Part shown: in pieces, positions 4,147 to 49,079 of the stretch
Layout: each line of letters starts with the position of its first letter
Position numbering within the stretch: position 1 is the first letter of the stretch
NCBI GenBank assembly: GCA_016789405.1
Contig: JAEUPQ010000040.1
Span: 62,001 to 126,000, forward strand
DNA: 64,000 nt
Direction: 5' to 3'
Source of the DNA: Lysobacteraceae bacterium
GTDB taxonomy: Bacteria; Pseudomonadota; Gammaproteobacteria; Xanthomonadales; Xanthomonadaceae
Notes under the pieces: model-generated
The model's database searches: none
Told to the model about the DNA's origin: nothing
Seen by the model: only the letters and a program-made list of their open reading frames with translations
Translations under genes and position numbers: made by a program

Positions 4147-5505
4147 ATGCAATCGCAGTCCCGCACCACCCGCCAGGCGCGTCTCGCGCTGGCGATGTTC
4201 GCGGCGGTCGCCGCCACGTCTTCGATCGCCCAGCAGCGCCCGGCCACCGCCGAATCCCTGCGTCCTTCGGCCCCCGCGCAGCGCATCGTCGGCGGCAGCC
4301 TCACCACCACGGTCCAGCCATGGGTCGCTGCGCTGCTGCAGAACGGCCAGCAGGGCTGCGGTGGTTCGCTGATCGCGCCGCAGTGGGTGGTCACCGCCGC
4401 GCATTGCGTGTCCGGCGGCGCCAATCCCACCCAGGTGCGCCTGGGCTCGCTCTATCGCAGCAGCGGTGGCCAGGTCATCTCGATCTCGCAGAAGATCGTC
4501 CATCCCGGCTACAGCACCAGCAACATCAACGGCGGCAACGACATCGCCCTGCTGAAGCTCGCCAGCCCGGTCTCGGGCATCACGCCGATCTCCATCGCCG
4601 CCAGCGCGCCCGGCGCGAACACCGCAGTGCGCCTGTACGGCTGGGGCCAGACCACGCCGCAGCAGGGCGGGGACCGCGGCTCCGAGCAGCTCAAGCAGCT
4701 CGACACCCAGATCATCGCCTCGTCGAACTGCGCGAACTACCGGACCGGCGACCTCTGCGTGCGCGGCAGCACGTCGGCGACCGCCTGCTACGGCGACTCG
4801 GGCGGCCCGGCGATCGTCGGCGGCGCGCTGGTCGGCGCGACCAGCCGCGCTGGTGGCAACAACACCACCTGCGGCCCGACCAACGCGATCTATACCAGCG
4901 TCGTCTATTTCAAGAGCTGGATCAGCCAGTACGTCAGCACCACGCCGCCCGGCGACTACAGCATCTCGGGCACGATCACCAACAGTTCGGGCGCCGGCAT
5001 TTCCGGCGTGACGGTGAGCAACGGCAGCGTCACGGCAACGACCAGCAGCACCGGCGCCTACACCCTGACCGGCGTGGGCAACGGCACCTACACGCTGACG
5101 CCTTCGCTGAGCGGCTACACCTTCTCGCCGGCCAGCCGCAGCGTGACCGTGAACGGCGCCAACGTCACCGGCCAGGACTTCACCGGCACCGGTTCGAGCA
5201 CGGGCAATTGGCAGACCCAGAGCGGATCGCTGGCCAGCGGCGGCAGCGCCACGGTGCCCTCGTCGCCGGGCTACGTGCAGGGCGGCAACGGCACCTACCA
5301 GGCCACGCTCAGCGGTCCGTCGACGGCGGACTTCGACCTGTACCTGTTCAAGTGGAATGGCGCGTCCTGGACCCAGGTCGCCAAGAGCGATGGCAGCACC
5401 TCCAGCGAATCGATCAGCTACAACGGCACCGCTGGCTACTACGCGCTGCAGGTGCGGTCGTACTCCGGCAGCGGCACCTACACGGCGCGCTACCTGTTCC
5501 CGTAG
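4147..5505 (+). CDS. Secreted S1A trypsin-fold serine protease with regulatory-like and PPC-like C-terminal modules
   Basis: A 452-residue secreted endopeptidase. Domains in order: signal peptide (about 1-29), short propeptide ending QR before IVGG at 48, S1A catalytic domain (about 48-263), carboxypeptidase-regulatory-like beta module (about 267-350), and a PPC-like module (about 355-452). The triad is H86 (TAAHC), D132 (NDIALL) and S218 (GDSGGP). The S1-pocket position six residues before the serine is Thr212 rather than the Asp of true trypsins, so cleavage after Lys/Arg is not expected. The start ATG is set by GAGGAGGGG seven bases upstream. The PPC-like tail is nearly the same as that of the subtilase at 40257, 36 kb away, pointing to domain exchange. 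Likely exported by Sec and then type II secretion (inferred). Confidence 0.9.
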   Translation: MQSQSRTTRQARLALAMFAAVAATSSIAQQRPATAESLRPSAPAQRIVGGSLTTTVQPWVAALLQNGQQGCGGSLIAPQWVVTAAHCVSGGANPTQVRLGSLYRSSGGQVISISQKIVHPGYSTSNINGGNDIALLKLASPVSGITPISIAASAPGANTAVRLYGWGQTTPQQGGDRGSEQLKQLDTQIIASSNCANYRTGDLCVRGSTSATACYGDSGGPAIVGGALVGATSRAGGNNTTCGPTNAIYTSVVYFKSWISQYVSTTPPGDYSISGTITNSSGAGISGVTVSNGSVTATTSSTGAYTLTGVGNGTYTLTPSLSGYTFSPASRSVTVNGANVTGQDFTGTGSSTGNWQTQSGSLASGGSATVPSSPGYVQGGNGTYQATLSGPSTADFDLYLFKWNGASWTQVAKSDGSTSSESISYNGTAGYYALQVRSYSGSGTYTARYLFP

Positions 5506-5576
5506 CCCTGACGAGGCAGGCCTGGGGCGGGCGCCCTGGTGGTCGCCTGTTTCCGGCGCCGTGTCGGACACGGGAA

Positions 5577-5606
5577 GGGCCGGTCGCGCGAGCGACCGGC
5601 CCGTTT
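5577..5606 (+). terminator. Probable terminator after the first protease
   Basis: An 11-bp perfect stem GGGCCGGTCGC/GCGACCGGCCC with a GCGA loop is followed by G and only three T. Stem strength supports termination; the T-run is weak. Confidence 0.6.
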
Positions 5607-6118
5607 GCGTCGAGCAAAGGAAATGTGCACGACGACAGCGAATCGCATGGCGTCACTGCCCTTCTGACGCAAACAGCACTCGATCGAACAGCCTCTTTCG
5701 ACGCGATGCGCAGCAGGATGGCGAGATGCATCACGAAAGACGCGCGATGCCGCGCACGCCGCGTGCGACCATGACGCTGCGTCGTGTTGCGTCGCACAAA
5801 TCTCACCGAGGTCTTCTCGCGCGGATGTCGCAGGAGCGAATTGGTTTCGTTTGAAACTGTGATGTTGTGCTGAATTTGGCAGATCGTCATAAGCCGCCGG
5901 ACCTTGTGCGTATGCACAACTGCTATCAAGCCCGCCGTGCAGTGAAAGCCCGGGCGTCGGCGATCAGGAACGGATCATCAGGATTGATCGCAGCGGAACA
6001 CGCACGCCGCGCAAAGACGGCGACCGTGTACCGCCGGGTGCATCCACGCACGACCACGCATGCAATCGAAGGCATGCGACACGACCAATCACAACAAGCA
6101 TCACGGAGGGTTCTCACA
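5607..6118. other. Non-coding leader of second trypsin-fold gene
   Basis: About 510 bases with no credible gene. The protease frame stays open upstream to 5867, but that stretch has basic, low-quality protein sequence and no ribosome site. I see no clear promoter boxes; a single TTTGA at 5849 is unpaired. Confidence 0.5.
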
Positions 6119-7243
6119 GTGGTTAACGCTTCCCGCAACTTCCTGTTCGCTGCCGTCGGCCTGGCTCTGGCCGCTTCTTCGCTCAACGCTGGCGCGCAGC
6201 AGCGCATTCCCGGCATGCAGCAGGGCAACACCCCCAGCGTCCAGCAGCGCATCGTCGGCGGCAGCCTCGCACCCGATGGCGCCTATCCGTGGACGGCCGC
6301 ACTGCTGAGCAGCAGCGGCAGCCAGTTCTGCGGCGGCTCGCTGATCGCCGCGAAGTGGGTGGTCACCGCAGCGCACTGCAGCAGCAGCGCCGCATCGGTC
6401 CGTGTCGGCTCGGTCGATCGCACCTCGGGCGGCCAGGTCATCCGCGTCATCCGTCGCATCAACCATCCGCAGTACAGCACGCAGAACGACATCGCGCTGC
6501 TGGAACTCGAAACCCCCGTGTCGGGCATCACGCCGATCACGCGCGGCACTGCGTCGCCTGCCGTTGGCGCCACCGTGCGTCTGCTGGGCTGGGGCCAGGT
6601 GACCTCGCCGTTCGGCGGCGACTCCGGTTCGCGTTACCTCAAGCAGCTGGACACCACCGTGCTGACGCCGAGCACCTGCTCGGGCACCGGCGCCGGTGAC
6701 CTCTGCTTCCGCGGCACGACCACCCAGACCGCCTGCAAGGGCGACTCCGGCGGCCCGGCGCTGCACAACGGCGCGCTCGTTGGCGCGACCAGCCGTTCGG
6801 GCCGCAGCGCCAACTACTGCGGCGAAGACGTGATCTACACCAACGTCACGTACTACAAGACCTGGATCGACCAGTACGTCGGCGGCGGCACCAATCCGGG
6901 TGGCCAGACCTACACCAACAGCGCCGACTACCAGATCCGCGACAACACCACGGTCGAAAGCCCGATCACCGTTTCCGGGCGCACCGGGAATGGCTCCGCC
7001 ACCACGCCGGTGGCCGTGAACATCGTGCACACCTACATCGGCGACCTGAAGGTCGACCTGGTCGCGCCGGACGGCTCGGTCTACGTGCTGCACAACCGTT
7101 CGGGCGGCGGCGCCGACAACATCAACCAGACCTACACGGTGAACCTGTCGGGCGAAGCCATGAACGGCACCTGGAAGCTGCGCGTGAACGACAACGCCAA
7201 CGCTGACACCGGCTACGTCAACAGCTGGAGCGTCACGTTCTGA
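6119..7243 (+). CDS. Secreted S1A trypsin-fold serine protease with P domain
   Basis: A 374-residue secreted protease. The GTG at 6119 is the start: GGAGGG lies eight bases upstream and the coding sequence begins directly with a signal peptide (about 1-26). A short propeptide ends QQR before IVGG at 45. The S1A domain (about 45-255) has H86 (TAAHC), D124 (NDIALL) and S210 (GDSGGP). As in the neighbour at 4147, the S1 position six before the serine is Thr, not Asp. The C-terminal P domain (about 263-374) belongs to the YVLHNR subtype also found on the proteins at 21616, 27333, 29690 and 33455, and ends SWSVTF. P domains stabilise or help target subtilisin-like proteases; one on a trypsin fold fits this cluster's modular pattern. 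Confidence 0.9.
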   Translation: MVNASRNFLFAAVGLALAASSLNAGAQQRIPGMQQGNTPSVQQRIVGGSLAPDGAYPWTAALLSSSGSQFCGGSLIAAKWVVTAAHCSSSAASVRVGSVDRTSGGQVIRVIRRINHPQYSTQNDIALLELETPVSGITPITRGTASPAVGATVRLLGWGQVTSPFGGDSGSRYLKQLDTTVLTPSTCSGTGAGDLCFRGTTTQTACKGDSGGPALHNGALVGATSRSGRSANYCGEDVIYTNVTYYKTWIDQYVGGGTNPGGQTYTNSADYQIRDNTTVESPITVSGRTGNGSATTPVAVNIVHTYIGDLKVDLVAPDGSVYVLHNRSGGGADNINQTYTVNLSGEAMNGTWKLRVNDNANADTGYVNSWSVTF

Positions 7244-7285
7244 TGCGCCTGCGACCGCGAGGTCGCATGCTCGTCGATGCATCAG

Positions 7286-7700: not shown

Positions 7701-9503
<1,803 letters not shown>

Positions 9504-10010: not shown

Positions 10011-11813
10011 GTGAATTACCGTTACTCGTTGCTTTCGGTGGCCATTGCCGCCGCGTTCACCTGTGCCTCGTCCGATGCGACGGCAGGCGAACTCCGCACC
10101 GTGAAGAATCCCATCCCGGGCCAGTACATCGTCATCCTGAAGGACAACGCCGCCCGCCTCGCGACCGAGCGCAGCGGCCTGTCCCGTGTCGGCGTGGTGT
10201 CGCGCGATGTCGCCACGAAGAGCCGCGCCAGGATCACGCACAGCTACACCCATGTGCTCCGTGGTTTCGCCGCGCGCGCCGACGACAAGGCATTGGCGCG
10301 CCTGCTCGCCGATCCTCGCGTGGCCTACGTGCAGGAAGACGGCATGGCGTCGATCGCCGACACCCAGAACAATGCGACCTGGGGCCTCGATCGCATCGAC
10401 CAGCGCAGCCTGCCGCTGAACCAGACCTACGTCTACAGCTCGCCGGCTTCGGGCGTGCATGCCTACGTGCTCGATACCGGCCTGTTCGCCACGCACAGCC
10501 AGTTCACCAACCGCGTCGGCAACGGCCGCAGCGAAATCAACGATGGTCGCGGCACTTCCGACTGCCACGGCCATGGTACGCATGTGTCCGGCACCGTCGG
10601 CGGCAGCGTGCATGGTGTCGCCAAGGGCGTGACCATCCATCCGGTTCGCGTGCTGGGCTGCGATGGCAGCGGCCCGAATTCTGGCATCGCCGCGGGCATG
10701 GACTGGGTCGCGGCGAATCACGTGAAGCCGGCCGTGGCGAACCTGAGCATCCAGGATTCGGCCGATCCCACCCTGGATGACGCCGTGCAACGCCTGCACA
10801 ACGCAGGGGTCACCGTCGTGGTCGCCGCAGGCAACTACTCGGGCAATGCCTGCAGCTATTCGCCGGCGCGCGCGCCCGCAGCCATCACCGTGGGCTCGAC
10901 CGACAGCAACGATGCGCGTTCGTCGTTCTCGAACTACGGCAACTGCGTGGACATCTTCGCGCCGGGCGGCAACATCACGTCGGCCAGCCATACGAATACC
11001 ACCGGCACCGCGACGATGAGCGGTACTTCGATGGCATCGCCGCATGTTGCCGGCGCTGCGGCGCTCTACCTGGCCCTGAACCCGAACGCGACCCCGTCCC
11101 AGGTCCGCAACGAACTGGTCGAAGCCGCGACGCCCGGCAAGGTCACCAACCCCGGTTCGGGCTCTCCGAACATGCTGCTGTACACGTTCTTCGAGGATCC
11201 GCCGCCGCCGGGCGACTACAGCGTCTCCGGCACCGTCACCAACAGTTCCGGTGCGGGCATCTCCGGTGTGACGGTGAGCAACGGCAGCACCACCGCGACC
11301 ACCAACAGCAGCGGCGTCTACACGCTGACGGGAATGGCCAACGGCACGTACACGCTGACCCCGTCGCTGAGCGGCTATACGTTCTCGCCCGCCAGCCGCA
11401 GCGTCACCGTGAACGGCGCCAATGTCACCGGCGTCAACTTCACCGGTGCGCAGGACAACAACGGCGGCGGCCAGACCTACACCAACGCCAACAACGTCAA
11501 CATCTTCGACAACTTCACTGTGACCAGCCCGATCACGGTGTCCGGCCGCACCGGCAATGGCTCTGCGACCACCCCGGTGGCCGTGGACATCAAGCACACC
11601 TTCCGTGGCGACCTGAAGGTGGACCTGGTCGCGCCGGACGGCTCGGTCTACGTGCTGAAGAACTACAACAGCAACGACAGCGCCGACAACGTGATCCAGA
11701 CCTTCACGGTCAACCTGTCGAGCGAAGCGCTGAACGGCACCTGGCGCCTGCGCGTGAACGACAACTGGGTGAACGACACAGGCTACATCGACAGCTGGAG
11801 CCTGACGTTCTGA
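10011..11813 (+). CDS. Secreted S8 subtilase, tandem copy 2, with altered substrate-groove segment
   Basis: A 600-residue paralogue of the gene at 7701 with the same order: signal peptide, I9 propeptide, S8 domain, regulatory-like module (about 400-479) and P domain (about 488-600). Triad D155, H188 and S340 is intact. Unlike all other subtilases here, the NMSLGG segment of the substrate groove reads NLSIQDSADP (residues 244-253). In subtilisins the Ser-Leu-Gly-Gly strand lines the S1 pocket, so altered specificity is likely. GTG start with AGGAG five bases before it. Its 3' region and terminator resemble copy 1, consistent with duplication of a whole 2.3-kb unit. Confidence 0.92.
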   Translation: MNYRYSLLSVAIAAAFTCASSDATAGELRTVKNPIPGQYIVILKDNAARLATERSGLSRVGVVSRDVATKSRARITHSYTHVLRGFAARADDKALARLLADPRVAYVQEDGMASIADTQNNATWGLDRIDQRSLPLNQTYVYSSPASGVHAYVLDTGLFATHSQFTNRVGNGRSEINDGRGTSDCHGHGTHVSGTVGGSVHGVAKGVTIHPVRVLGCDGSGPNSGIAAGMDWVAANHVKPAVANLSIQDSADPTLDDAVQRLHNAGVTVVVAAGNYSGNACSYSPARAPAAITVGSTDSNDARSSFSNYGNCVDIFAPGGNITSASHTNTTGTATMSGTSMASPHVAGAAALYLALNPNATPSQVRNELVEAATPGKVTNPGSGSPNMLLYTFFEDPPPPGDYSVSGTVTNSSGAGISGVTVSNGSTTATTNSSGVYTLTGMANGTYTLTPSLSGYTFSPASRSVTVNGANVTGVNFTGAQDNNGGGQTYTNANNVNIFDNFTVTSPITVSGRTGNGSATTPVAVDIKHTFRGDLKVDLVAPDGSVYVLKNYNSNDSADNVIQTFTVNLSSEALNGTWRLRVNDNWVNDTGYIDSWSLTF

Positions 11814-11868
11814 TCCGGGACGGAAGCTTCCGGCCGGCGTGCAACGGCCGATCCGATGGATGACACGG

Positions 11869-11898
11869 GAACCCCGGCGCAAGCCGGGGTTCTTTTTT
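11869..11898 (+). terminator. Rho-independent terminator
   Basis: Stem GAACCCCGGC/GCCGGGGTTC closes a GCAA tetraloop and is followed by six T. Confidence 0.92.
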
Positions 11899-12333
11899 GG
11901 GGCCTGGCCCGTCGGCACGACGTTGCGGGTGGGGCCAAAGCACAAGGCGACCGTCATCCTCGCTGGCGTGAGGATGACGGGGTGTCGCTTCACCGGCGAC
12001 GCAACGTGCCGCTGCGGCCTGTTTGCCTAGCATCTGCCCCCGGAATTCGATCCGGTCGGGCGCTGACCGTCTCATCAAAAGATCAATTGATGATATTTTC
12101 TCGAAAAAACAGATGTTTATTTGTTCCTGGCCGGCTTGTGGCGCATTCGGGCTCTGCCTAGATTCGGCCTCGCGGATGCCGGACGAACCTGTCGTGTCGA
12201 ACCAGAACCACGCGTAGTCCAGTCGTACCCAGCACTACAACAACGGCACATCGCCAGGGCCATCCGCCCACAGTGCGTCGCCCGATCGAGGCGGCGCTTG
12301 GCAACTCTTCACTTCCTGATTGAAGGAGCGATT
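11899..12333. other. Non-coding leader of subtilase 3, with an AT-rich patch
   Basis: About 435 bases with no gene. The subtilase frame stays open to 12121 but lacks a ribosome site there. An unusually A/T-rich patch at about 12070-12125 includes the 10-bp palindrome ATCAATTGAT (12082-12091) and a run of six A. This leader does not resemble those of copies 1 and 2. Regulatory or promoter function is likely but unproven. Confidence 0.45.
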
Positions 12334-14136
<1,803 letters not shown>

Positions 14137-17137: not shown

Positions 17138-17452
17138 GTGGTGTTGTCGGATCTGGGCGGTGAAACCCTGGTGGCAAACCCCTGCGCGACGATCCGGCGA
17201 CGGCCGGCGCATCGGCATGGATCGTATCGATGTCCCCCTGTGCGGCCCGCCGAACGACGTCGGCGACCGTGCTGCCGACTGTTGGCGACGCTCGGCGTCC
17301 ATGTCGGGCGTATACGAATTTAACGCATCGTGGCCGGCATCGCGAGCCGCGCGCATGCGGATCGTTCGGAGCCGGACGCATGCGGTCTGGTATGGCGATG
17401 CCGGGCGTGCTCATGCAGATCCGGCATGTCCAGGGCGTCTCGATCGATGGGT

Positions 17453-20546: not shown

Positions 20547-20612
20547 TCCGCGCGATACCTGGCCCGGCAGCCGCCTGCAGGGCAGATGTTCCCGAACAAC
20601 GAAGGAGTTCCG

Positions 20613-24568: not shown

Positions 24569-27096
<2,528 letters not shown>

Positions 27097-35518: not shown

Positions 35519-37309
<1,791 letters not shown>

Positions 37310-37416: not shown

Positions 37417-37823
37417 CCGGAACGACATGTTTCCGACGTACGGTCGCCGGCCTTGTTGAAGATTCTGGCCGCTCGTCGCCATCATGGCCGTCCTGTCAGG
37501 CTTCGGCCATGTGCGGCCGGTAGCAGAATGAGCGGGTGTCCGGCACCGGTCGTCCGCAGGCCCGAGTGCGGCCTTTTTCCCGATGAAAACAGCGCGCATC
37601 GCGTTTCGCGATATCGAACGGCCACGCCGTGGCGCAGCCTTGATTCCACCCTGGAACTGGACTACGGTCGGGCCGCGGTTGCAGGCACGGGATGCCTGTT
37701 CTCGAACGCAGTTCCCCCGTTCCGTGCCAGGGCGTGCGCGCCCCGATGCGGCCGCGATGCCCGCGTGGACAGCGACTCGCGCGGGTCCGGAAACGCCCAT
37801 CGCAGAGAAGACAAGGAGCGATC
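37417..37823 (+). promoter_or_regulatory. Leader of subtilase 37824, copy of the leader before 35519
   Basis: About 405 non-coding bases. The final 150 share the CAGGCACGG-ATGCCTG hairpin, the CCCGCG/CGCGGG hairpin and the ribosome-site block with the previous leader. The hairpin arms are conserved while the loops and surroundings differ, which suggests selection on RNA structure. Confidence 0.45.
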
Positions 37824-39614
37824 GTGAATTACCGTGATTCCATCCTCTCCATCGCCGTGGCCACGACCCTCGCGTGTGCCGCATCCCCCGCATTCGCCGG
37901 CGAATTCCGCGCCGCCAGCAGCCCGGTCCAGGGGCAATACATCGTCGTTTTCAAGGACGATGCCGCGAGTCTCGCCAACGAGCGCAGCAGCCTCTTGCGT
38001 GTCTCGGTCGTCGCGCGCGACGTCGCCGCGAAGAACCGCGCCAAACTCGTGCACAGCTACAGCAACGTGCTGCGTGGCTTCGTTGCGCGCGCGGACGACA
38101 GGGCGTTGGCGCGCCTGCTCGCAGATCCGCGCGTGGCCTATGTCGAAGAAGACGGCGTCGTCACTGCCTCCGCCACGCAGAGTCCCGCGACCTGGGGACT
38201 CGATCGCATCGACCAGCGCGATCTGCCCTTGAACAACAGCTACACCTACGACACCACTGCGCCCGGTGTGCACGCCTACATCATCGATACCGGCGTGCTG
38301 CTCACCCACAGCGAGTTCAGCGGTCGCATGGGCAATGGCTACGACGCCGTGACCAGCGGCGGCAATGCCAACGATTGCCATGGCCACGGCACGCATGTCG
38401 CGGGCACCGTCGGCGGCACGACCTGGGGCGTGGCCAAGGGCGTGACCATCCATCCGGTGCGCGTGCTCGGCTGCAACGGCTCGGGCACCAATGCCGGCGT
38501 GATCGCGGGCATGGACTGGGTCGCGAACAACCACGTCAAACCAGCCGTGGCGAACATGAGCCTCGGCGGTGGTGCGTCGCAATCGACCGACGACGCCGTC
38601 GCGCGGATGACCAATGCAGGCGTGACCGTGGTGGTGGCCGCGGGCAACAACAACGCGAGCGCGTGCAACTATTCGCCCGCGCGCGCACCATCGGCGATCA
38701 CCACGGGCTCGACCACGAACACGGACGCACGTTCGTCGTTCTCGAATTACGGCACCTGCCTGGACATCTTCGCTCCGGGTTCGAGCATCACCTCGGCGTG
38801 GTACACCAGCACCACCGCGACCAACACCATCAGCGGTACCTCGATGGCGTCGCCGCACGTGGCGGGCGTGGCCGCGCTGTACCTCGCGACGAATCCGACC
38901 GCGACGCCGAGCCAGGTCACCACGGCGATCATCAACAATGCGACGCCGAACAAGGTGACCAGTCCCGGCACGGGTTCGCCGAACCGCTTGCTGTACTCGC
39001 TGTTCGGACCGGGCACGCCGACGTACACGGTGTCCGGCACGATCACCACGAGCGCCGGCGCCGGCATCTCCGGCGTGACCGTCAGCACCGGCAGTGCGAC
39101 TGCAACGACCAACAGCAGCGGCGCGTACACGCTGAGCGGCCTGGCGAACGGTACCTACACGCTGACGCCTTCGCTGAGCGGTTACACGTTCTCGCCAGCA
39201 AGCCGCAGCGTCACGGTGAACAGCGCCAATGTCAGCGGCCAGGACTTCACGGGCACGGGCTCGGGGACCGGCGTGCAGACCTACACCAACGGCACGGATT
39301 ACAACATCGCCGACTTCGCCACGGTCAACAGCCCGATCTCGGTCAACGGACGCAGCGGCAACGGTTCGGCAACGACCCCGGTGGCGGTCAACATCATCCA
39401 CACCTATCGCGGCGACCTCGTGGTCGACCTCGTGGCGCCGGATGGTTCGGTGTACAACCTGCACAACCGCTCGGGCGGTTCGGCCGACAACATCAACCAG
39501 ACCTACACGGTGAACCTGTCGAGCGAGGCGCTCAACGGCACGTGGAACCTGCGTGTTCGCGACGCCGCCTATCTCGATACCGGGCGCATCGACAGCTGGA
39601 GCATCACCTTCTGA
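37824..39614 (+). CDS. Secreted S8 subtilase (I9-S8-regulatory module-P domain), second array copy 2
   Basis: A 596-residue subtilase starting at GTG 37824, five bases after AAGGAG. Signal peptide (1-26), I9 propeptide, S8 domain with D155 (IIDTG), H188 (GHGTH) and S340 (GTSMASPH), regulatory-like module (about 399-478), P domain of the YNL-NR subtype (about 483-596). Start-to-start distance from copy 1 is 2305 bp, close to that of the first array. The propeptide has drifted (VVFKDD in place of VVLKDN). Function as for the other subtilases; substrate unknown. Confidence 0.92.
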   Translation: MNYRDSILSIAVATTLACAASPAFAGEFRAASSPVQGQYIVVFKDDAASLANERSSLLRVSVVARDVAAKNRAKLVHSYSNVLRGFVARADDRALARLLADPRVAYVEEDGVVTASATQSPATWGLDRIDQRDLPLNNSYTYDTTAPGVHAYIIDTGVLLTHSEFSGRMGNGYDAVTSGGNANDCHGHGTHVAGTVGGTTWGVAKGVTIHPVRVLGCNGSGTNAGVIAGMDWVANNHVKPAVANMSLGGGASQSTDDAVARMTNAGVTVVVAAGNNNASACNYSPARAPSAITTGSTTNTDARSSFSNYGTCLDIFAPGSSITSAWYTSTTATNTISGTSMASPHVAGVAALYLATNPTATPSQVTTAIINNATPNKVTSPGTGSPNRLLYSLFGPGTPTYTVSGTITTSAGAGISGVTVSTGSATATTNSSGAYTLSGLANGTYTLTPSLSGYTFSPASRSVTVNSANVSGQDFTGTGSGTGVQTYTNGTDYNIADFATVNSPISVNGRSGNGSATTPVAVNIIHTYRGDLVVDLVAPDGSVYNLHNRSGGSADNINQTYTVNLSSEALNGTWNLRVRDAAYLDTGRIDSWSITF

Positions 39615-39689: not shown

Positions 39690-40256
39690 CGGGCCATCGA
39701 GTGTCCGTGGGCAGGATCGTCTCGTGCAGCTTCGGGCTGGCACGCGGAAAAGCGTGTTGCATTGCGACATATCGACGGGGGAATGCCCGCGCCGTGACGG
39801 ATAGATGTGCGCTCGCAGCGGATTTCGCGTCGAAACATTGATGTTTCTTGTCCAGAGAACCCATCGCGTGTTGAAGATTTCGTTCGCGCGATGCGCGTGG
39901 TCGCGAAATCGAACTCGAACATGGCACATGCCTCGGGCCTGTGCTTCCGGCATGAGCCGCACTGGCGTTTCATGTCGCGCCATCGCGTCTTTCCGGTTCG
40001 GTTATCAGGACGAACGCTTATTGCATGAAGTCGAACACGGGGCTCAAGACGCGTCCTTGCTTCGTGTCGAACGCGCGTCTAGCTTGCCGCGGCGGATGCA
40101 GGTGGGGGCGCCTGCGCGTATCCGGGCGACTTTCCGGTTCCCGCCGTGCCGATGCCTTCGGCGCAGTGTCCGTATTTCGGTGCGCATGGGTGGAGCAGAG
40201 GTTCCATGCGCATCCCATTCGAAGAAAAACACACAATTCGAGTTGAAGGAGTGAAC
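39690..40256. other. Non-coding leader of subtilase 40257
   Basis: About 565 bases with no credible gene. The conserved hairpins of the two previous leaders are absent; only the ribosome site GAAGGAGTGAAC before GTG is shared. Confidence 0.5.
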
Positions 40257-42017
40257 GTGAACCATCGTAATTCCATGCTCTCCATTGCCGTCGCGACGAT
40301 CCTGTCGTGTTCGGTCCTTCCGGCGTTCGCGGGCGAATTCCGCACCGCGAAGAATCCGGTCCAGGGGCAATACATCGTCGTCCTGAAGAACAACGCCGCC
40401 AGCCTGTCCAGCGAGCGCAGCAGCCTGTCGCGCGTGTCCGTCGTGGCCCGCAACATGGCAGCACAGCACCGCGCCAAGCTCGTGCGCAGCTACGACAACG
40501 CATTGCGCGGATTCGTCGCGAGGGCGGACGACAAGGCGCTCGCTCGCCTGCTCGCCGACCCGCGCGTCGCCTACGTCGAGGAAGACGGCATCGTGCGCAC
40601 CGTCGCCACGCAGTCCGGCGCCACCTGGGGCATCGATCGCGTCGACCAGCGCAACCTGCCGCTCGACTCCTCCTACACCTACAACACCACGGCATCGGGC
40701 GTGCACGCCTACATCATCGACACCGGCGTACTGGGCAGCCACAGCCAGTTCTCCGGTCGCATGGGCAACGGCTATGACGCCGTGGGCGGCGGTACATCCG
40801 ATTGCAACGGCCATGGCACGCACGTCGCGGGCACCGTCGGCGGCACGACCTATGGCGTCGCCAAGGGCGTCACGATCCACCCTGTCCGCGTGCTGGGTTG
40901 CGATGGCTCGGGCACGAACTCCGGCGTGATCGCGGGCATGGACTGGGTCGCCAACAACCACGTCAAGCCCGCTGTTGCGAACATGAGCCTCGGCGGCGGC
41001 GCCTCGCAGGCGACCGATGATGCGGTCGCGCGCATCGTCAACGCCGGCGTGACCGTGGTCGTCGCCGCGGGCAACGACAACTCCAATGCCTGCAACTACT
41101 CGCCCGCACGCGCGCCTTCGGCGATCACCGTCGGCTCGACCACGCGCACCGATGCGCGCTCGTCGTTCTCGAACTACGGCTCGTGCCTGGACATCTATGC
41201 ACCGGGCTCGGACATCCTGTCGGCCTGGTACACCAGCAGCAGCGCGACCAACACCATCAGCGGCACGTCGATGGCATCGCCGCACGTGGCCGGCGTGGCC
41301 GCGCTCTACCTGGCGAGCAATCCGTCGGCGACGCCGTCGCAGGTGACGCAGGCGATCGTCAATGGCTCGACGCCCAACAAGGTGACCAGCGCCGGCAGCG
41401 GTTCGCCGAACCGCCTGCTGTATTCGCTGCTCGGCGGCAGCACCAACCCGCCGGGCAACTACAGCATCTCGGGCACGATCACCAACAGCTCGGGCGCCGG
41501 CATCAGCGGCGTGACCGTGAGCAATGGTTCGACCTCGGCGACGACGAACAGCAGCGGTGCTTACACGCTGACGGGCCTGTCCAACGCCACCTACACCCTG
41601 ACCCCGTCGCTGAGCGGCTACAGCTTCAGCCCGGCCAGCCGCAGCGTCACGGTCAACAGCGCCAACGTCACCGGGCAGAACTTCACGGGGACGGCATCGA
41701 CCGGCGGCGGCAACTGGCAGACCCAGACCGGCACGCTGGCCAACGGCGGCTCCGCCGTGGCGCCGAGTTCTCCGGGCTACGCGCAGGGCGGCAGCGGCAC
41801 CTACCAGGTGACCCTGACCGGCCCGGCGTCGGCCGACTTCGACCTCTTCCTCTACAAGTGGAACGGCGCGTCGTGGACCCAGGTGGCCAGGAGCGAGGGC
41901 AGCACGTCCACCGAGTCGATCAGCTACAACGGCACCGCCGGCTACTACGCCGTGCAGGTCACGTCGTACTCGGGCAGCGGCAGCTACACGGTGAAGTACC
42001 TGTTCCCGCAGCCCTGA
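40257..42017 (+). CDS. Secreted S8 subtilase with regulatory-like module and PPC-like tail
   Basis: A 586-residue subtilase starting at GTG 40257, five bases after AAGGAG. Signal peptide, I9 propeptide, S8 domain with D155, H186 and S338 (two residues shorter in the loop before the histidine), regulatory-like module (about 400-478), then instead of a P domain a PPC-like module (about 484-586: [30 protein letters not shown]). That tail otherwise occurs only on the trypsin-fold protease at 4147, and both end in YLFP. The catalytic part belongs with the genes at 33455-37824. A clear case of module replacement. Confidence 0.92.
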
Positions 42018-42076: not shown

Positions 42077-42168
42077 TTCGTGCGATTGCCCGGAGGATCG
42101 GCACGTCCGTGGCATCGAAAGGGGCGCTATGATCGTGGCGTTTCCGCATCGACGTGCACAGAAGACCC

Positions 42169-43521
42169 ATGCAGACTGGCCCCTTCTTCCTGATCCTCGC
42201 CATCGCACTGGGTGCTTCCGGCCCCGCCGCCGCGCGACGCCCCGCACCCGCACAGGATGCGCCGGGCCATGTCGACGCCCACGTGTCCGCAGAGTTGTCT
42301 TCGCTGCGACTGGAGCATGATCCCTTTGCGCGCGTCTACATCGTCATGTCGCGCGAGACGCATGCGCACATGCCCGATCTCGTGCGCGGCGTGACGCCGA
42401 AGACGGACAGGCAGGGCAATCGCCTCGTGCTGGCCGAGGTCCGTGCCCACCAGTTGAGTCGCATCACCGAGCGGGTGCACCAGCGCGAACGCCGCTGCGG
42501 TGGCTACTTCTCCTTCCCGACGCGCGCCCAGGCGGACGCCTTCCTGCGCAACGACCGCTCGCGACCGCCGCAGGCGCGCAAGAGCCCGGCGATCATGGTC
42601 GAGTACCGCATCGACAATGCCGCGACGGTCTTGCCCTGGCTCGACCAGGTGCAGCACGCGAACATCCACGACACGATCAGCCATCTCTCTGCGTACCAGA
42701 ATCGCTACTACGCCAGCAGCTACGGCCGCGATTCGGCGCAGTGGATCCACGATACCTGGCTTGGGCTGGCCGCGGGACGCAGCGATGTCACCGCCGAGTT
42801 GTTCTCGTGCAGCAACTGTTCGACGCAGCCGTCCGTGATCCTCACGATCCGCGGCACCGACCTGCCGAACGAAGTGGTCGTCCTCGGCGGGCACCTGGAT
42901 TCCATCAACATCAACGGCGGCGGCAGCCCGAGCCAGCGCGCGCCGGGCGCGGACGACGACGCCTCCGGCATTGCCACCCTCACCGAAGTGCTGCGCATCG
43001 CGATGGCGAGCGGCTGGAAACCCAGGCGCACCGTGAAATTCATGGGCTATGCGGCCGAGGAAGTCGGCCTGCGCGGGTCCAATGCCATCGCGCAGAAGTA
43101 CCGCTACAGCAATGTGAACGTGGTCGCGGCGCTGCAGATGGACATGACCAACTACAAGTCGGGCACCGGTCCCGACATGCGCCTGGTCACCGATTTTTCC
43201 GATCCGCACATGCAGCGATTCCTGGCCGACCTGTTCGATGCCTATCTCGCGCCGCGCGGCATGACCCGAGGGACGGATACCTGCGGCTATGCCTGTTCGG
43301 ACCATGCCTCGTGGACCGCGGCCGGATTCCCGTCCGGTTTCTTCTTCGAGGGTGGCACCGCCAGCGGCAACGGCTTCTCGGCGATCCACACCACCAGCGA
43401 CACGCTTGCGAACATGGGCAACTCGGCGCAGAACAGCGCCAAGTTCGCGCAACTGGGCCTGGCCTTCCTGGGCGAAGCCGCGAAGACCGCTTCCTCGGCA
43501 AAGCGCGCCCAGCCGCGCTGA
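42169..43521 (+). CDS. Secreted M28 aminopeptidase without C-terminal modules
   Basis: A 450-residue paralogue of the aminopeptidase at 27333. Signal peptide about 1-22. Predicted ligands H242 (GHLDS), D263 (GADDDASG), E298 with catalytic E297, D325 (QMDMTN) and H407 (IHTTSDT). It ends about ten residues after the catalytic domain, where the paralogue continues into PKD and P domains. ATG 42169 is preferred; a GTG five codons earlier is possible and neither has a strong ribosome site. It is followed by the core-only paralogue (43953) of the unknown protein at 21616, so both members of this pair lack the tail modules present at the other locus. Confidence 0.92.
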   Translation: MQTGPFFLILAIALGASGPAAARRPAPAQDAPGHVDAHVSAELSSLRLEHDPFARVYIVMSRETHAHMPDLVRGVTPKTDRQGNRLVLAEVRAHQLSRITERVHQRERRCGGYFSFPTRAQADAFLRNDRSRPPQARKSPAIMVEYRIDNAATVLPWLDQVQHANIHDTISHLSAYQNRYYASSYGRDSAQWIHDTWLGLAAGRSDVTAELFSCSNCSTQPSVILTIRGTDLPNEVVVLGGHLDSININGGGSPSQRAPGADDDASGIATLTEVLRIAMASGWKPRRTVKFMGYAAEEVGLRGSNAIAQKYRYSNVNVVAALQMDMTNYKSGTGPDMRLVTDFSDPHMQRFLADLFDAYLAPRGMTRGTDTCGYACSDHASWTAAGFPSGFFFEGGTASGNGFSAIHTTSDTLANMGNSAQNSAKFAQLGLAFLGEAAKTASSAKRAQPR

Positions 43522-43952
43522 GCGGGTTTCAGGTGGTTCGTGGTCCGATGCAGTCCATCGGACTGTCCTGAAGGGATTCCAGTCCATGTCCGGCCCGTGT
43601 CCGGACATGCCTTCCTGTGCCGATCTTGCGCATTCGCTTGTTGCGGCGCACAACCTTTCGCGATCGAACTTCAAACGAAACAACGGTTTGCAACGCGTCG
43701 GAGGCATGTCCGCGGGTGACGCGGGCGTGTCTGTTGACGCTCGATCGCGACGACGGATGGCATCCCCGGAATCACCTGTCCCGAGGAAGGGACCCGGACA
43801 GGTGGCCCGCGTTTTCGAAAGCGCGAGGCAACAGGGGGAGGCACGCGCAGCGCACTGCCGGCCGGATGAAGACGCACCGCAGAGAGCGTCGGAGACATGA
43901 CAGGCCCGGAGCGATCCGGGACGACTTCAGGACATCCCAAGGGGTTTTTCGA
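43522..43952. other. Non-coding leader of 43953
   Basis: About 430 bases. The downstream frame stays open to 43617 but gives no signal peptide or ribosome site until 43953. Nothing else recognisable. Confidence 0.5.
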
Positions 43953-45650
43953 ATGAAACAAGCAACTTTCCAGATGGCCGCCGCAGCGGTCCTCTCGTTC
44001 CTGCTGCCCTGCGCCGCGATCGCCGCGCAGCCGCAGGCCGCGCAGGTGAAGACGGTGCGACCGCAGGTCGGCAGCCCGGTGTCGGCGCACAGCATCGGCG
44101 TCGACATCCGCAACCTGCCGCGTGCGAAGGAATGGCACCCGGGCATGGCGATCCGCGAAGCGCATCGCCGCCAGTACACGCCGATCGGCACCCGTGCGCC
44201 GCACGCGCCGGACAACAAGCCGGTTGCGCGCGATCGATTGAACGAGCTCCAGGCGATCTACGACCGCGCCGCGCCGAAGGCAGCGCGCGCCAAGGTCAGC
44301 GGCGGTCGCGTGAGCATCAACAATCCGAACACAGGCGTGAGCCCGGGCGACCCGGTGCTCGAGGTTGGCACCAACCATGTGATCTATGCCGTCAACAGCG
44401 GCGGCAGCGGCACCTACTTCAAGGTCTACGACAAGGCCGGCAATCTCGTCGCCGGTCCGACCACCTTCGGTTCGCTGGCACCGGCCGGCAATGCCTGCGC
44501 GAGCGACCGCGGCGATCCGCTGGTCCACTTCGATCGCCAGGCCGGCCGCTGGTTCTTCCTGACGATGGACGACGGTGGCGTCTGCACCTTCGTGTCGAAG
44601 ACCTCCGACCCGGTGAGCGGCGGCTGGTGGTTCTACCGCTATGCCACCCAGGCCTTCCCCGATTACCCGCATTGCGGCGTGTGGAACGACGCCTACGTCT
44701 GCGCCACCAACGAAGGCAGCGTGGCCGGTGCCGACGTCTACGCGTTCGATCGCGCCAACATGCTCAACGGCGCCACCGCGCGCGCCGCGCAGCGCTTCAG
44801 CAGCGTTGCGACGCTGCCGGGCTATGGCTTCCAGATCATCACGCCGTCGACGTTCTACGGCACCACCGCCGCGCCTGCGGGCCGCCGCCAGGTGCTCGCG
44901 CGCCATCGCGACGACGAAGCGCATGACGGTGCCGCTGCGAACGGTGCGCAGGACTTCATCGAACTGTTCGAAATGAACATCGACTGGAACACGCCGGCGA
45001 ACAGCAGTATCACCACGCTGCCGCGCGTCGCGATCACCGAGTTCAACAGCTGGTTCACCGACTACTCGACCTTCGCCACCGTGCCGCAGCCGGGCAGCAA
45101 GACCGCCAAGCTCGATCCGATCCGCGAAGTCATCCTCAACCAGCTGACGTATCGCAACTTCGGCACGCACGAGTCGCTGGTCGGCACCTTCGCCACCAAC
45201 CAGAACACCGGTCGCACCCGTCGCAGCCCGGTGGATTCGGGCGTTCGCTGGTTCGAATTGCGTCGCAGCGGTTCCGGCAACTGGGCCCTGCACCAGGAAG
45301 GCACGTTCAGCCCGGGCGACGTCAACACGCACCACCTGCTGGGCGTGGCCGCGATGGACAAGTTCGGCAACATCGGCATGGGCTACAACGTCACCAAGAC
45401 CAGCACGCCGACCGTGTACGCCTCGCTGCGCTACACCGGCCGCACCGCGTCCGACCCGCTGGGCGTGATGTCGGTGCCGGAAACCACCGTTGCCGCAGGC
45501 GCTGCCGTGGAAGGCTCGGGCCGCTGGGGCGACTACTACCAGATGACCGTGGATCCGGTGGACGACTGCACCTTCTGGTTCGTCGGCATGTACCGTCCGA
45601 GCGGCAGCTGGCAGACGCGCATCCAGGACTTCAAGTTCCCGGGCTGCTGA
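43953..45650 (+). CDS. Large secreted protein of unknown function, core-only paralogue of 21616
   Basis: A 565-residue secreted protein. Signal peptide about 1-25 (FLLPCAAIAA-QP), then the same 540-residue core as the protein at 21616: NIRNLPRAK-type block, INNPNTGVSPGDPVLEVG, TFVSKTSDPVSGGWWFY, DPVDDCTFWFVGMYRPSGSW. It stops at FKFPGC, exactly where the paralogue passes into its regulatory-like, PPC and P modules. No catalytic motif is recognised. ATG 43953 follows AAGGGG. Conservation of the core without the tail suggests that the core is the functional part. Confidence 0.8.
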   Translation: MKQATFQMAAAAVLSFLLPCAAIAAQPQAAQVKTVRPQVGSPVSAHSIGVDIRNLPRAKEWHPGMAIREAHRRQYTPIGTRAPHAPDNKPVARDRLNELQAIYDRAAPKAARAKVSGGRVSINNPNTGVSPGDPVLEVGTNHVIYAVNSGGSGTYFKVYDKAGNLVAGPTTFGSLAPAGNACASDRGDPLVHFDRQAGRWFFLTMDDGGVCTFVSKTSDPVSGGWWFYRYATQAFPDYPHCGVWNDAYVCATNEGSVAGADVYAFDRANMLNGATARAAQRFSSVATLPGYGFQIITPSTFYGTTAAPAGRRQVLARHRDDEAHDGAAANGAQDFIELFEMNIDWNTPANSSITTLPRVAITEFNSWFTDYSTFATVPQPGSKTAKLDPIREVILNQLTYRNFGTHESLVGTFATNQNTGRTRRSPVDSGVRWFELRRSGSGNWALHQEGTFSPGDVNTHHLLGVAAMDKFGNIGMGYNVTKTSTPTVYASLRYTGRTASDPLGVMSVPETTVAAGAAVEGSGRWGDYYQMTVDPVDDCTFWFVGMYRPSGSWQTRIQDFKFPGC

Positions 45651-45799: not shown

Positions 45800-46984
45800 T
45801 CAGCCGAGCACGAGCGACAGGCCGTAGGCGCTCAACAGCGGGTTGATGCGCTGGTAGTAGCTCACCGGGTTGGACACGCTGCAGTTGGAGTAGGGCGGTG
45901 CCGAACCGTAGAGCTGGCCGCCGGAACTCACGCCCTGCGCCTGGTTGCCGGCCAGCCACGAGCCGCCGGAATCGCCCTGCGTGAGGCAGGCGTTGGCCTG
46001 GCGCAGCCCGTACACCGGGCCGTTCGAGTAGTTCACCGTCACGCTGTTCGCGGTGATCGTGCCGCAGCGCCAGCCCGAGGCGTAGCCGGAACGGCACACG
46101 GCGGTGCCGACGCCGTATTCGGTGCTGCCACGCACTGCGACATTCGTGCCGTTGTAGCGGTTCACCAGCCCGTACAGCACGTCGCTGCTGCGCACGTTGG
46201 CCCATGCGCGATCGTTGGTCGGGAAGCTGCTGCCCTGCACCGAACCGACGGCGACGCCGCCGATGCTGACGCTGGTCCCCGCGCTGCCGCAGTGGCCTGC
46301 GGTGGCGAAGCCCTTCGTGCTGCCGCGCGTGACCGAGAAACCGATCGAGCAGGAGCCGCCGCCCGAACCGTAGCGGTTGCCGCCGATGACGTTGGCGGCG
46401 GGCATCGCGACGCCTTCGGCGCGCTCGAAGCGGACGGTATCGACGTTCGCGGCGCTGACTGCGACGAAATCGATCGCGCGCAGCATCGCGCCATCCTGCA
46501 CCTTCACCACGACGCTGTTGGTCGGCAGGTCGACGTACCACGACTGCACGCCGTGCATCGCGCGGGCATCGCGTGCGCGCTGGCGGATGTCGTCGAGGCG
46601 CGCCATCGTGCCCTCGAGCTGGCGCAGGCTGTGGCGCACGCTGCGCACTTCGCTGCCCGGCAGGCTGGCCTTCGCCGCGCCGGCGGTGGCGACGACGTAG
46701 CGGAAGTCGCCCGTCGAGGTGCGCTCCAGCCAGCCACCCGCGAAGTTCGCGCCGAACGCACGACGCGCCTGCGCTTCGCGCGCCAGCGTTTCGTGCTGCA
46801 GCTTGAAGAAGCGCGGCAGCTGCTCGGCGGTAAGGTTGAGGTCGCGCTGCATCGCAGCGGCCATGTCGACCGGGATCGACGTGCGCACATCGTTCGCGGC
46901 AGCAGTTCCGGCAAGTGCGGCGGTGGCCATGGCGATGGCGATCGAAACGAGGGTTTTCCTGTCCACGAAATTCGAATGAGACAT
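45800..46984 (-). CDS. Alpha-lytic protease-type serine endopeptidase, copy 1
   Basis: A 394-residue secreted protease of the alpha-lytic endopeptidase family. Signal peptide about 1-30, large pro region (about 31-196) that acts as a folding catalyst in this family, and a mature domain starting near ANVIGG at 197, leaving 198 residues, the length of Lysobacter alpha-lytic protease. Triad H231 (TAGHCG), D258 (PTNDRAW) and S339 (GDSGGSW). Cysteine pairs 212/232, 297/307 and 333/368 match the known pattern. ATG 46984 has CTGGAG about ten bases upstream. The closest relative is at 47916 in the same orientation. In the family this enzyme cuts after small residues and lyses bacteria and soil nematodes. 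Confidence 0.95.
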   Translation of the reverse strand: MSHSNFVDRKTLVSIAIAMATAALAGTAAANDVRTSIPVDMAAAMQRDLNLTAEQLPRFFKLQHETLAREAQARRAFGANFAGGWLERTSTGDFRYVVATAGAAKASLPGSEVRSVRHSLRQLEGTMARLDDIRQRARDARAMHGVQSWYVDLPTNSVVVKVQDGAMLRAIDFVAVSAANVDTVRFERAEGVAMPAANVIGGNRYGSGGGSCSIGFSVTRGSTKGFATAGHCGSAGTSVSIGGVAVGSVQGSSFPTNDRAWANVRSSDVLYGLVNRYNGTNVAVRGSTEYGVGTAVCRSGYASGWRCGTITANSVTVNYSNGPVYGLRQANACLTQGDSGGSWLAGNQAQGVSSGGQLYGSAPPYSNCSVSNPVSYYQRINPLLSAYGLSLVLG

Positions 46985-47792: not shown

Positions 47793-47853
47793 GGGGTTCG
47801 ATGGCAATCGATGTGCAATGGTCGACCCCGTGGTTCGAGACAAGTTCAACGAG

Positions 47854-47881
47854 GATGGCCCCGGGTTTCCCCGGGGCCATC
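47854..47881 (-). terminator. Hairpin after alpha-lytic copy 2
   Basis: 12-bp stem GATGGCCCCGGG/CCCGGGGCCATC with a four-base loop. No clear T-run on the minus strand, but the position just after the stop codon supports a terminator or 3' stabiliser. Confidence 0.6.
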
Positions 47882-47915
47882 TTGGACGCATCACGTCGAC
47901 TGCTTGCAGTCGCGA

Positions 47916-49079
47916 TCAGCCGCGCACCAGCGTCAGGCCGTAGGCGCTGAGCAGCGGATTGATCGGCTGGTAGTACGTCACCGGGCTGGCGCTGCCGCAG
48001 TTGCTCGTGCCGTTGAGCTGGCCGCCGGAGCTGACGCCCTGCGCCTGGTCGTTGACCAGCCACGAACCGCCGGAATCGCCCTGGGTGACGCAGGCGCTCG
48101 ACTGGCGCAGGCCGTAGACCGGGCCATTCGAGTAGTTCACGGTCACGTTGAGCGCGGTCACGCGGCCGCAGCGCCAGCCTGAGGCGAAGCCCGAACGGCA
48201 GATCGAGGTGCCGACGCCGTATTCGGTGGTGCCGCGCACCGGCACGGTGCTGCCGTTGTAGCGGTTGACCTGGCCGACCAGGGTGTCGCTGCTGCGCACG
48301 CTGGCCCAGGCGATGTCGCGGCTCGGGAACGTCGCCGCCTGCACGGAACCCACGGTGACGCCGCCGATGCTCACGCTGGTGCCGGCGCGACCGCAGTGGC
48401 CGGCCGTGGCGAAGCCCTTGGTCGTGCCGCGCGTCACCGCGAAGCCGATCGAGCACGAACCGCCGCCCGAGCCGTAGCGGTCGCCACCGCGCACGGTGGC
48501 GACCGGCGTCGCGACGCCCTCCGCGCGCTCGAAGCGGATCGCGCGGCCGTTCGCGGCGCTGACCGCGACGAAGTCGATCGCACGCGCCATCGCGCCCGGC
48601 TCGACCGACACCACCACGCTGTTGCTTGGCAGGTCGATGTGCCACGACTGCACGCCCTGCAGGCGACGGCCGTCGCGTGCGCGCTGGCGCACGTCGTCGA
48701 GGCTCTGCATCGCCAGCTCGAGGTCGCGCAGCGAATGACGGACCTGGCGCACGCTTGCGCCCGGAACGGACTTGCCGGCAGCGGTGCTGGCGACCACCTG
48801 GTGGAACTGGCCTGTGGCGTCGCGCTCCAGCCAGGCGCCGGCGAAGTTCGCGCCGAGTGCGCGGCGCGCCTGCGCTTCACGCGCCAGGCTGTCGCGCTGC
48901 AGCTGGAAGAAGCGCGGCAGGTACTCGGCGCGGATGCCGAGGTCGCGTTCCATCGCCGCAACCATGCCGGCGGGGTAGGTCTCGCGCTCGCCGGCGGCGA
49001 CGGTCCCGATGGAGGTGATCGCCACGGCCAGGCTGGCCGCGACGAGGAGATGCTTGCCCATCTGATTCGAACTGAACAT
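47916..49079 (-). CDS. Alpha-lytic protease-type serine endopeptidase, copy 2
   Basis: A 387-residue paralogue of the gene at 45800. Signal peptide about 1-29, pro region (about 30-192), mature domain about 195 residues. Triad H228 (TAGHCG), D255 (PSRDIAW) and S336 (GDSGGSW). The mature start reads ATVRGGDRYGSGGG. ATG 49079 follows CTGGAGCGATTCA, almost the same leader as copy 1 (CTGGAGTGATTCA), so the pair was duplicated with its translation signals. The frame continues upstream without protein-like sequence. Confidence 0.95.
   Translation of the reverse strand: MFSSNQMGKHLLVAASLAVAITSIGTVAAGERETYPAGMVAAMERDLGIRAEYLPRFFQLQRDSLAREAQARRALGANFAGAWLERDATGQFHQVVASTAAGKSVPGASVRQVRHSLRDLELAMQSLDDVRQRARDGRRLQGVQSWHIDLPSNSVVVSVEPGAMARAIDFVAVSAANGRAIRFERAEGVATPVATVRGGDRYGSGGGSCSIGFAVTRGTTKGFATAGHCGRAGTSVSIGGVTVGSVQAATFPSRDIAWASVRSSDTLVGQVNRYNGSTVPVRGTTEYGVGTSICRSGFASGWRCGRVTALNVTVNYSNGPVYGLRQSSACVTQGDSGGSWLVNDQAQGVSSGGQLNGTSNCGSASPVTYYQPINPLLSAYGLTLVRG

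Follow-up and report, generated by a model that had tools for sequence, protein, structure and literature searches.

Known systems and the protease locus

SusCD-type polysaccharide utilization loci (PULs) and the TonB-containing carbohydrate utilization (CUT) loci of xanthomonads are utilization loci whose typical regulators are hybrid two-component systems (HTCS) or extracytoplasmic function (ECF) factors. A locus that is PUL-like in layout, with a TonB-dependent receptor gene standing together with genes for degradative enzymes, is located in the 64,000-nucleotide stretch of Lysobacteraceae DNA analyzed here (the window; G000:C40:62001-126000, from a genome of 4.47 Mb that comprises 40 contigs). 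Between positions 4147 and 49412 it carries 16 peptidase genes: two of the S1A type, eight S8 subtilases, one gene of the Lys-C type, two M28 genes, one M23 gene and two alpha-lytic genes. The locus resembles PUL and CUT loci in combining a TonB receptor, secreted depolymerizing enzymes of several families and a regulator, and in having a recurrent core with a variable periphery. It differs from them in that protein would be the substrate class, and in carrying a Trans_reg_C regulator instead of the usual HTCS or ECF types. No SusD gene was found in Pfam scans of the listed genes, and the receptor is not of the SusC type (41.3 bits against the SusC-type NCBIfam model, whose cut-off is 368.25).

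The alpha-lytic, beta-lytic and Lys-C type enzymes of the locus are clearly related to the Lysobacter bacteriolytic enzymes and achromopeptidase, as represented by structures 1p01/1p09, 8af1 and 1arb. The available portions of papers on these enzymes treat them without their gene neighborhood, whereas here the three kinds occur in one locus and the Lys-C type enzyme carries a C-terminal tail (TTR plus P-domain) that is common to S8 genes. Earlier work has dealt with the beta-lytic enzyme and with the set of bacteriolytic enzymes in L. capsici (PMC7693508, PMC12219114), and P-domains and PPC domains are known on prokaryotic serine proteases (PMC2605481). L. enzymogenes M497-1 is cited as carrying over 117 peptidase genes, 80 of them "within the gene cluster" (PMC12285256). 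The likeness lies in the many peptidases; "gene cluster" may or may not mean physical clustering, and the accessible part of that account mentions neither a syntenic island nor constant flanks, nor any exchange of cassettes. The same source reports a P-domain on an Asp-specific peptidase of L. soli. In five Lysobacter strains, 5.7-7.2% of coding sequences are predicted peptidases (PMC4657364), and Luteimonas abyssi has 99 peptidases with signal peptides (PMC4687298); no island is mentioned in the available portions of either paper. In the open-licence PubMed Central literature we found no description of unrelated secreted peptidases that are linked by shared tails in a growing array of conserved gene order. 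The parts of the locus are of known kinds, and the novelty would lie in the locus as a whole, with exchange of cassettes and a link to a regulator.

Judging from gene content and synteny, we favor the view that this is probably a chromosomal locus for the digestion of protein outside the cell, conserved and, in one branch of the genus, expanded. Gene content was established by Pfam scans and reading of translations, and five of the peptidases were compared with structures in the PDB.

Clustering and conservation of the locus

The island stretch makes up 1.0% of the genome and holds 8 of its 24 S8 matches, 3 of 11 trypsin-fold matches (a count that includes Lys-C), 2 of 6 M28 matches, 2 of 4 alpha-lytic pro-domains, 11 of 23 P-domains and the sole full-length one of two beta-lytic matches. 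The islands of six congeners hold 40 of 62 P-domain matches, or 41 when the left part of the G010 island on contig C20 is counted; island P-domain counts, and the coordinates of the 4-kb zone used below for regulators, were entered by hand from match lists, and for the six congeners the rows entered agree in number with the tabulated matches. Seven of the eight S8 genes are mutual paralogues. Thus, duplication accounts for most of the S8 count, and raw binomial values overstate the clustering. When the unrelated families are each counted once, the product of the chances of one member lying in the island is 1.6e-6, which is a rough independence estimate with locus numbers set by hand. Chance co-location of the unrelated families is therefore unlikely, and duplication by itself cannot explain their presence at the locus.

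The comparison sample comprises 39 relatives, of which 10 are congeners (G001-G010). Seven islands were read at length, namely that of the window and those of congeners G001, G002, G003, G007, G008 and G010, leaving out the fragmented assemblies of G005, G006 and G009. The sequence-only reading of the window had regarded scattering of these genes in most relatives as the sign of an incidental grouping. Instead, a cluster of the same gene kinds is present in all six congeners read at length, and the island is judged from this gene order not to be incidental. Both flanks are found in five congeners (G002, G003, G004, G007 and G008), where the right flank is a WrbA/BrkB gene pair and the left flank is another TonB receptor gene, which in the window genome lies just before the window. 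S8 and M28 genes occur in 7 of 7 islands, and Lys-C in 6 of 7. All seven also carry, grouped together, the island's own TonB receptor, a Toastrack-like gene and a tailed member of an unnamed family, which we call SINN after its family motif. In islands that have them, SINN, alpha-lytic and WrbA/BrkB genes come after the part with Lys-C, S8 and M28.

The number of peptidases per island ranges from 3 to about 16, with M4 proteases present where S8 and S1 genes are few. These tallies were entered by hand from scans of the relatives, with M4 checked separately, and the G010 tally omits two S1 and two S8 genes on its second contig. M4 proteases are found at the site in G001, G002, G003, G004, G007, G009 and G018, and none in the window, G008 or G010. 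The smallest version is that of G004, where the two flanks enclose one M28 gene and a pair of M4 genes and no P-domains are present. The G010 island is split over two contigs (C33:121477-159676 and C20:10871-25000, locus L135), with the C20 part carrying the left-flank TonB receptor, a regulator, two S1 and two S8 genes. One contig of G009 bears in a row a PKD/P gene, an S8 gene, a broken SINN gene, M4, M28, WrbA and BrkB. In G018, which represents another genus, the TonB-Toastrack-SINN genes lie near one contig end, and M4, M28, WrbA and BrkB lie at the start of another contig, an arrangement consistent with one broken island. For G001, the left-flank TonB receptor was not found in the stretch fetched.

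We also considered a mobile genomic island. This reading is not supported, and the occupation of the site in relatives speaks against it. No tRNA gene was found in the window and no integrase among the genes scanned; the left border, which lies outside the window, was scanned for the TonB gene only.

Genes of the locus and their catalytic motifs

The genes are as follows, with window coordinates and strand.

404-3706, minus: REG1, with a Trans_reg_C winged helix, one hydrophobic (likely transmembrane) segment and a long C-terminal part; outside the island, divergent from S1_1 (Pfam)
4147-5505, plus: S1_1, S1A peptidase with TTR (CarboxypepD_reg) and PPC-like tail (Pfam, motifs)
5867-7243, start likely near 6071, plus: S1_2, S1A peptidase with P-domain (Pfam, translation, motifs)
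7701-9503, plus: S8_1, I9 pro-domain, S8 (proteinase K/aqualysin-like), TTR and P-domain (Pfam, motifs, PDB)
10011-11813, plus: S8_2, I9, S8, TTR and P-domain (Pfam)
12121-14136, start likely near 12334, plus: S8_3, I9, S8, TTR and P-domain (Pfam)
14237-17356, minus: REG2, Trans_reg_C, hydrophobic segment and long C-terminal part; divergent from the TonB receptor (Pfam)
18345-20546, plus: TonB-dependent receptor, heme/hemoglobin/siderophore-like, with family matches below cut-off (Pfam, NCBIfam, PDB)
20586-21449, plus: Toastrack-like (DUF4097) protein, a weak Pfam match (E=0.007; 16.1 bits, below the cut-off of 22.9)
21493-24489, plus: SINN_1, unnamed-family protein with two TTR, PPC and P-domain (Pfam for the tail, own profile)
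24869-27031, plus: Lys-C type endopeptidase with TTR and P-domain (Pfam, motifs, PDB)
27225-29276, plus: M28_1, leucyl-aminopeptidase-like M28 with PKD and P-domain (Pfam, motifs)
29690-31489, plus: S8b, second S8 type with P-domain, without I9 match (Pfam, motifs)
31577-32914, plus: beta-lytic M23 metalloendopeptidase without C-terminal module (Pfam, PDB)
33455-34999, plus: S8_4, I9, S8 and P-domain (Pfam, motifs)
35513-37309, plus: S8_5, I9, S8, TTR and P-domain (Pfam, motifs)
37692-39614, plus: S8_6, I9, S8, TTR and P-domain (Pfam, motifs)
40146-42017, plus: S8_7, I9, S8, TTR and PPC-like tail (Pfam, motifs)
42154-43521, plus: M28_2, leucyl-aminopeptidase-like M28 without C-terminal module (Pfam, motifs, PDB)
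43617-45650, plus: SINN_2, SINN family without C-terminal modules (Pfam, own profile)
45800-46984, minus: alpha-lytic protease 1 with pro-domain (Pfam, PDB)
47916-49412, start likely near 49082, minus: alpha-lytic protease 2 with pro-domain (Pfam, translation, motifs)
50403-52372: right anchor, WrbA-like FMN reductase (minus) and BrkB (plus), the island border in relatives (Pfam)

The inventory of the sequence-only reading holds up well. All 16 peptidase genes are present where it had placed them, Pfam scans confirm its division into families, and the alpha-lytic, beta-lytic and Lys-C types that it named are all there by PDB matches and motifs, as are the duplicated aminopeptidases (two M28 genes) and the TonB receptor. 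Its count of six catalytic families separates S1 subfamilies, and we take the MEROPS families at the locus to be four (S1, S8, M23 and M28). Nor do the peptidases stand with almost nothing else, since the TonB receptor, the Toastrack-like gene, two SINN genes and a Trans_reg_C regulator stand among them.

Catalytic motifs are intact in all 16 peptidases, as judged by pattern search and, where a pattern missed, by reading the translations by eye. The patterns missed two sites, the first M23 motif and the Asp of alpha-lytic protease 1, both of which are legible with other spacing or another residue. All eight S8 subtilases have the Asp-His-Ser triad and the oxyanion Asn motif, and every one except S8b has an I9 pro-domain. 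S8_1, the single S8 copy searched, has proteinase K and aqualysin as PDB relatives. The two S1A enzymes both carry the His-Asp-Ser triad, with Thr six residues ahead of the catalytic Ser. We take this site to be chymotrypsin position 189, where trypsin specificity presumably requires Asp. Because Thr is found there, classic trypsin specificity of the pair appears doubtful.

The Lys-C type gene matches Achromobacter protease I-type structures (1arb, E=3.6e-105; 4nsy, E=7.8e-109) and has the triad motifs, so that by similarity it codes for a putative lysyl endopeptidase with predicted Lys specificity. Both alpha-lytic genes have the Pro_Al_protease pro-domain, and alpha-lytic protease 1 (the single copy searched) matches 1p01/1p09 and the pro-domain structure 2pro. 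The beta-lytic M23 protein matches 8af1 (E=1.7e-89) and has the zinc ligands HVH and H-x13-D. Metal-ligand motifs were found in both M28 genes, of which M28_2 (the single copy searched) matches the Aeromonas-type aminopeptidase (1amp/1rtq).

These enzymes had been described as secreted, which we retain as a prediction. It draws on reading and on a crude hydropathy scan that always reports the best segment and has no control; in the 20 genes listed, the scan gives a hydrophobic segment (mean 1.9-2.7) with A-x-A after it.

Apparent exchange of C-terminal domains

The TTR, PKD, PPC and P-domain tails recur on unrelated catalytic domains, and several pairs of genes from different families share closely similar tails. 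The Lys-C gene and S8_5 are 89% identical over 601 nucleotides, from before the TTR through the stop codon, S1_2 and S8_4 have P-domains that are 89% identical, and S1_1 and S8_7 agree at 82% over 577 nucleotides. In the 60 bases past the stop codon, 11-22 positions agree without gaps in the eleven pairs tried, which is probably the level of chance. Across seven genomes, the nearest relative of a P-domain is attached to another catalytic family in 19 of 48 cases and lies in the same genome in 13. A tree of the P-domains (94 columns) is poorly resolved; its starred groups mix S8a, S8b and SINN in G010, and S8a with Lys-C in G001, G003 and G007. The tails of Lys-C orthologues also vary, being TTR plus P-domain in the window, G002 and G008, and TTR, PPC and P-domain in G003, G007 and G010.

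Comparison with G008 may point to exchange between species. Long alignments between the window and G008 are 76-88% identical, and coding stretches are mostly about 80-98% identical per 100 nucleotides in the part profiled. Set against this are two nearly identical tracts, which together span window positions 11526-14096 and G008:C5:78221-80825. One of these (window 12237-14096, about 1.9 kb) includes an exact run of 1091 nucleotides, and S8_3 is nearly identical to G008 positions 78181-80223. The other is a 354-nucleotide exact run (window 11526-11879) that comprises the end of S8_2 and 66 nucleotides beyond. By exact-match mapping, the longest exact run outside the two tracts is 167 nucleotides. 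We read the near-identical tracts as a possible trace of recent recombination between the two species, but the assembly of either genome may instead be chimeric. The catalytic domain of S8_2 is only 68-88% identical per 100 nucleotides to that of the tract-bearing G008 gene, whose catalytic domain is nearest to S8_1. Thus, unless an assembly is chimeric, the S8_2 tract looks like a tail swap.

A regulator class near exoenzyme genes

The regulators of the locus, which we call REG, are proteins of about 1000 amino acids with an N-terminal Trans_reg_C domain, one strong hydrophobic segment and a long C-terminal part, in which a TPR match just below the Pfam cut-off was seen in one copy only (G000:C30). 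The first two features are shared with one-component regulators of the CadC/ToxR type. REG proteins differ from these in their size, in their long C-terminal part and in usually lying beside exoenzyme genes, and their CadC match is far below the cut-off. REG1 and REG2 are 38% identical.

The window genome has six full-length REG copies, and none of the six is more than 4 kb away from a match to a peptidase or P-domain; the zone so defined covers 7.1% of the genome. Outside the window's contig, the same is true of 4 of 4 copies, on three contigs (zone of 5.9%). Two further matches (C34 and C20) are short, cover the DNA-binding end of REG and are additional to the six; by the hand-entered coordinates, neither has a marker nearby. 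Over all genomes there are 19 copies, in 7 of 39 genomes (E<=1e-30), and reading of the neighborhoods places 16 of the 19 next to an S8, S1 or cassette-bearing gene. The divergently oriented neighbor is an S8 gene in G000:C39, G010:C1 (443719), G023 and G035, an S1 gene in the window, G008 and G010:C20, and a TonB receptor gene in the window, G008 and G010.

Calcineurin-like phosphoesterases with TTR, P, PPC or PKD tails adjoin REG, divergently or tail to tail, in G000:C35:48734-64792 (L089), G008:C12 (L132) and G010:C1 (L134). In G000:C30:8377-12570 (L129), a 1397-amino-acid transglutaminase-core protein with two PKD domains and a P-domain is divergent from REG. Because of these neighbors, the link of REG appears to be to enzymes with such tails and not to peptidases alone. 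For three of the 19 copies (G018:C12, G033:C4 and G033:C19) no gene of this sort was seen, with two of them near contig ends and few neighbors scanned; the neighbors that were scanned comprise DUF4440, an acyltransferase and proteins without a match. The L089 copy also lies beside two more S8 genes, and two trypsin-like genes occur some kilobases from the L129 copy.

The TonB-Toastrack-SINN genes

A sequence search of the PDB gave no match for SINN up to E=1, and its Pfam matches do not rise above chance level. The family is found in 23 of the 39 relatives. In a sample of 398 genomes from across the phylum it is found in 4, one of which is the window genome itself (E<=1e-20, with at most three candidates scored per genome). 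A total of 23 SINN loci were scanned, consisting of 20 loci together with L080, L082 and L083. A Toastrack-like gene is near SINN in eight of them (L095, L096, L097, L099, L100, L104, L106 and L080), with a weak match (20 bits) in L100. It was not seen near SINN in the other 15 of the 23, among which L109 shows no SINN by profile. Locus L095 comes from another genus of the family, six of the loci come from other families of the order, and L080, from a deltaproteobacterial metagenome-assembled genome, carries Toastrack, SINN and a TonB receptor. Because the pair is present in other families and in this deltaproteobacterial genome, it is probably older than the protease array.

Possible functions of the locus

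If the locus serves protein digestion, its enzymes would exit the cell via Sec and the type II system. Endopeptidases would then cut outside proteins, including those of prey or dead cells opened by the alpha- and beta-lytic enzymes, and the M28 enzymes would trim the resulting peptides. The membrane-bound Trans_reg_C regulators might sense a periplasmic cue and drive the promoters of neighboring exoenzyme and TonB receptor genes. Recombination among neighboring genes would keep the pool of cassettes alike and yield new combinations of enzyme and tail, and it may also be why the array keeps expanding.

A more elaborate reading, which we offer only tentatively, is that the site is a cassette-exchange protease factory. 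A fixed site would recruit unrelated catalytic domains, whose tails are pooled by recombination among neighbors and between species, and its largest versions would have their own membrane-bound regulator class. Such an array would have been built round the older Toastrack-SINN-TonB module, with SINN working with the proteases outside the cell. The locus could in any case serve as a natural experiment in accessory-domain swapping among secreted enzymes. It also offers for study a regulator set, the SINN family, and a panel of proteases and bacteriolytic enzymes from a single site.

Several observations weigh against the digestion locus or its cassette-exchange version. The bacteriolytic genes are not constant, with beta-lytic in 2 of 7 islands (the window and G010) and alpha-lytic in 4 of 7. 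The cluster of G001 is separated from WrbA/BrkB by about 12 kb (L052:6995-19400, G001:C10) that hold other genes, including those for a protein kinase and a Pre-toxin TG protein and long open reading frames without a Pfam match. The best family matches of the island TonB receptor are heme/hemoglobin and siderophore receptors, below the NCBIfam cut-off, and are not peptide-like. When the labels of the P-domains are shuffled, cross-family nearest neighbors number 36.6 on average with a minimum of 24; since the 19 observed fall below this minimum, most P-domains still follow their own gene and vertical descent is dominant. Two of the six REG copies in the window genome lie in or beside the island, so that support from outside comes down to four copies on three contigs. 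REG is missing from 4 of 7 islands (G001, G002, G003 and G007), and those genomes have no match at E<=1e-30; thus, the locus persists without REG. Finally, no upstream motif is shared beyond chance. Pairwise comparison of up to 350 nucleotides upstream of 20 island genes (some regions shorter, starts partly guessed) matched only S8_1 with S8_2 and S8_5 with S8_6. In a degenerate-word test of 18 of these regions, with S8_2 and S8_6 left out, the best counts were within those of six shuffles for each of three word lengths.

The absence of a common promoter motif, the paralogy of seven S8 copies and the widely varying content among congeners would all fit a tandem-duplication hot spot, where S8 genes multiplied by unequal crossing-over and the other peptidases are present by chance with no shared function. 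However, unrelated M28, M4, Lys-C, alpha-lytic, beta-lytic and S1A genes meet at the same site in relatives, and their co-location is improbable under independence, which makes this explanation unlikely. A strict predation locus, whose whole set is used on living bacteria with the alpha- and beta-lytic enzymes opening prey walls, gains from the presence of both classic bacteriolytic types with intact motifs. These are the variable genes, and M28, S8 and SINN are the genes found in every island read. The window genome and G001-G008 together have 23 matches to the alpha-lytic pro-domain, of which 5 are placed in an island, 11 elsewhere and 7 (in G005 and G006) unplaced. The sequence-only reading had proposed predation or protein digestion. 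The enzyme set fits the latter, and the former draws on just the two alpha-lytic genes and one beta-lytic gene. We regard strict predation as quite improbable, and a protein-feeding role is likely the better description.

The TonB-Toastrack-SINN trio might instead be the center of a nutrient or metal acquisition system, in which the peptidases would release a ligand, for example heme, for import by the receptor. The constancy of the trio in the islands read, the Toastrack-like gene beside SINN in other families, the added TonB receptor in the deltaproteobacterial genome, and the resemblance of the island receptor to heme/hemoglobin receptors in NCBIfam and the PDB all speak for this possibility. 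Against it, the receptor scores under the curated cut-off, and no His was found by eye between its FRAP-like and NPNL-like motifs. In addition, the G004 version of the site carries peptidases but lacks the trio. We consider acquisition centered on the trio doubtful, and a locus for extracellular protein digestion remains the reading that we favor.

Neighboring genes and an S8 match with an in-frame stop

Beyond the right anchor, window positions 53920-57600 carry genes for a phosphate-selective porin-like protein, a solute-binding protein and an ABC permease, which are likely a phosphate uptake locus. This flank is colinear in G008 and G010. Elsewhere in the window genome, an S8 match at G000:C14:134909-135880 has one in-frame stop and represents a broken gene or a sequencing error.

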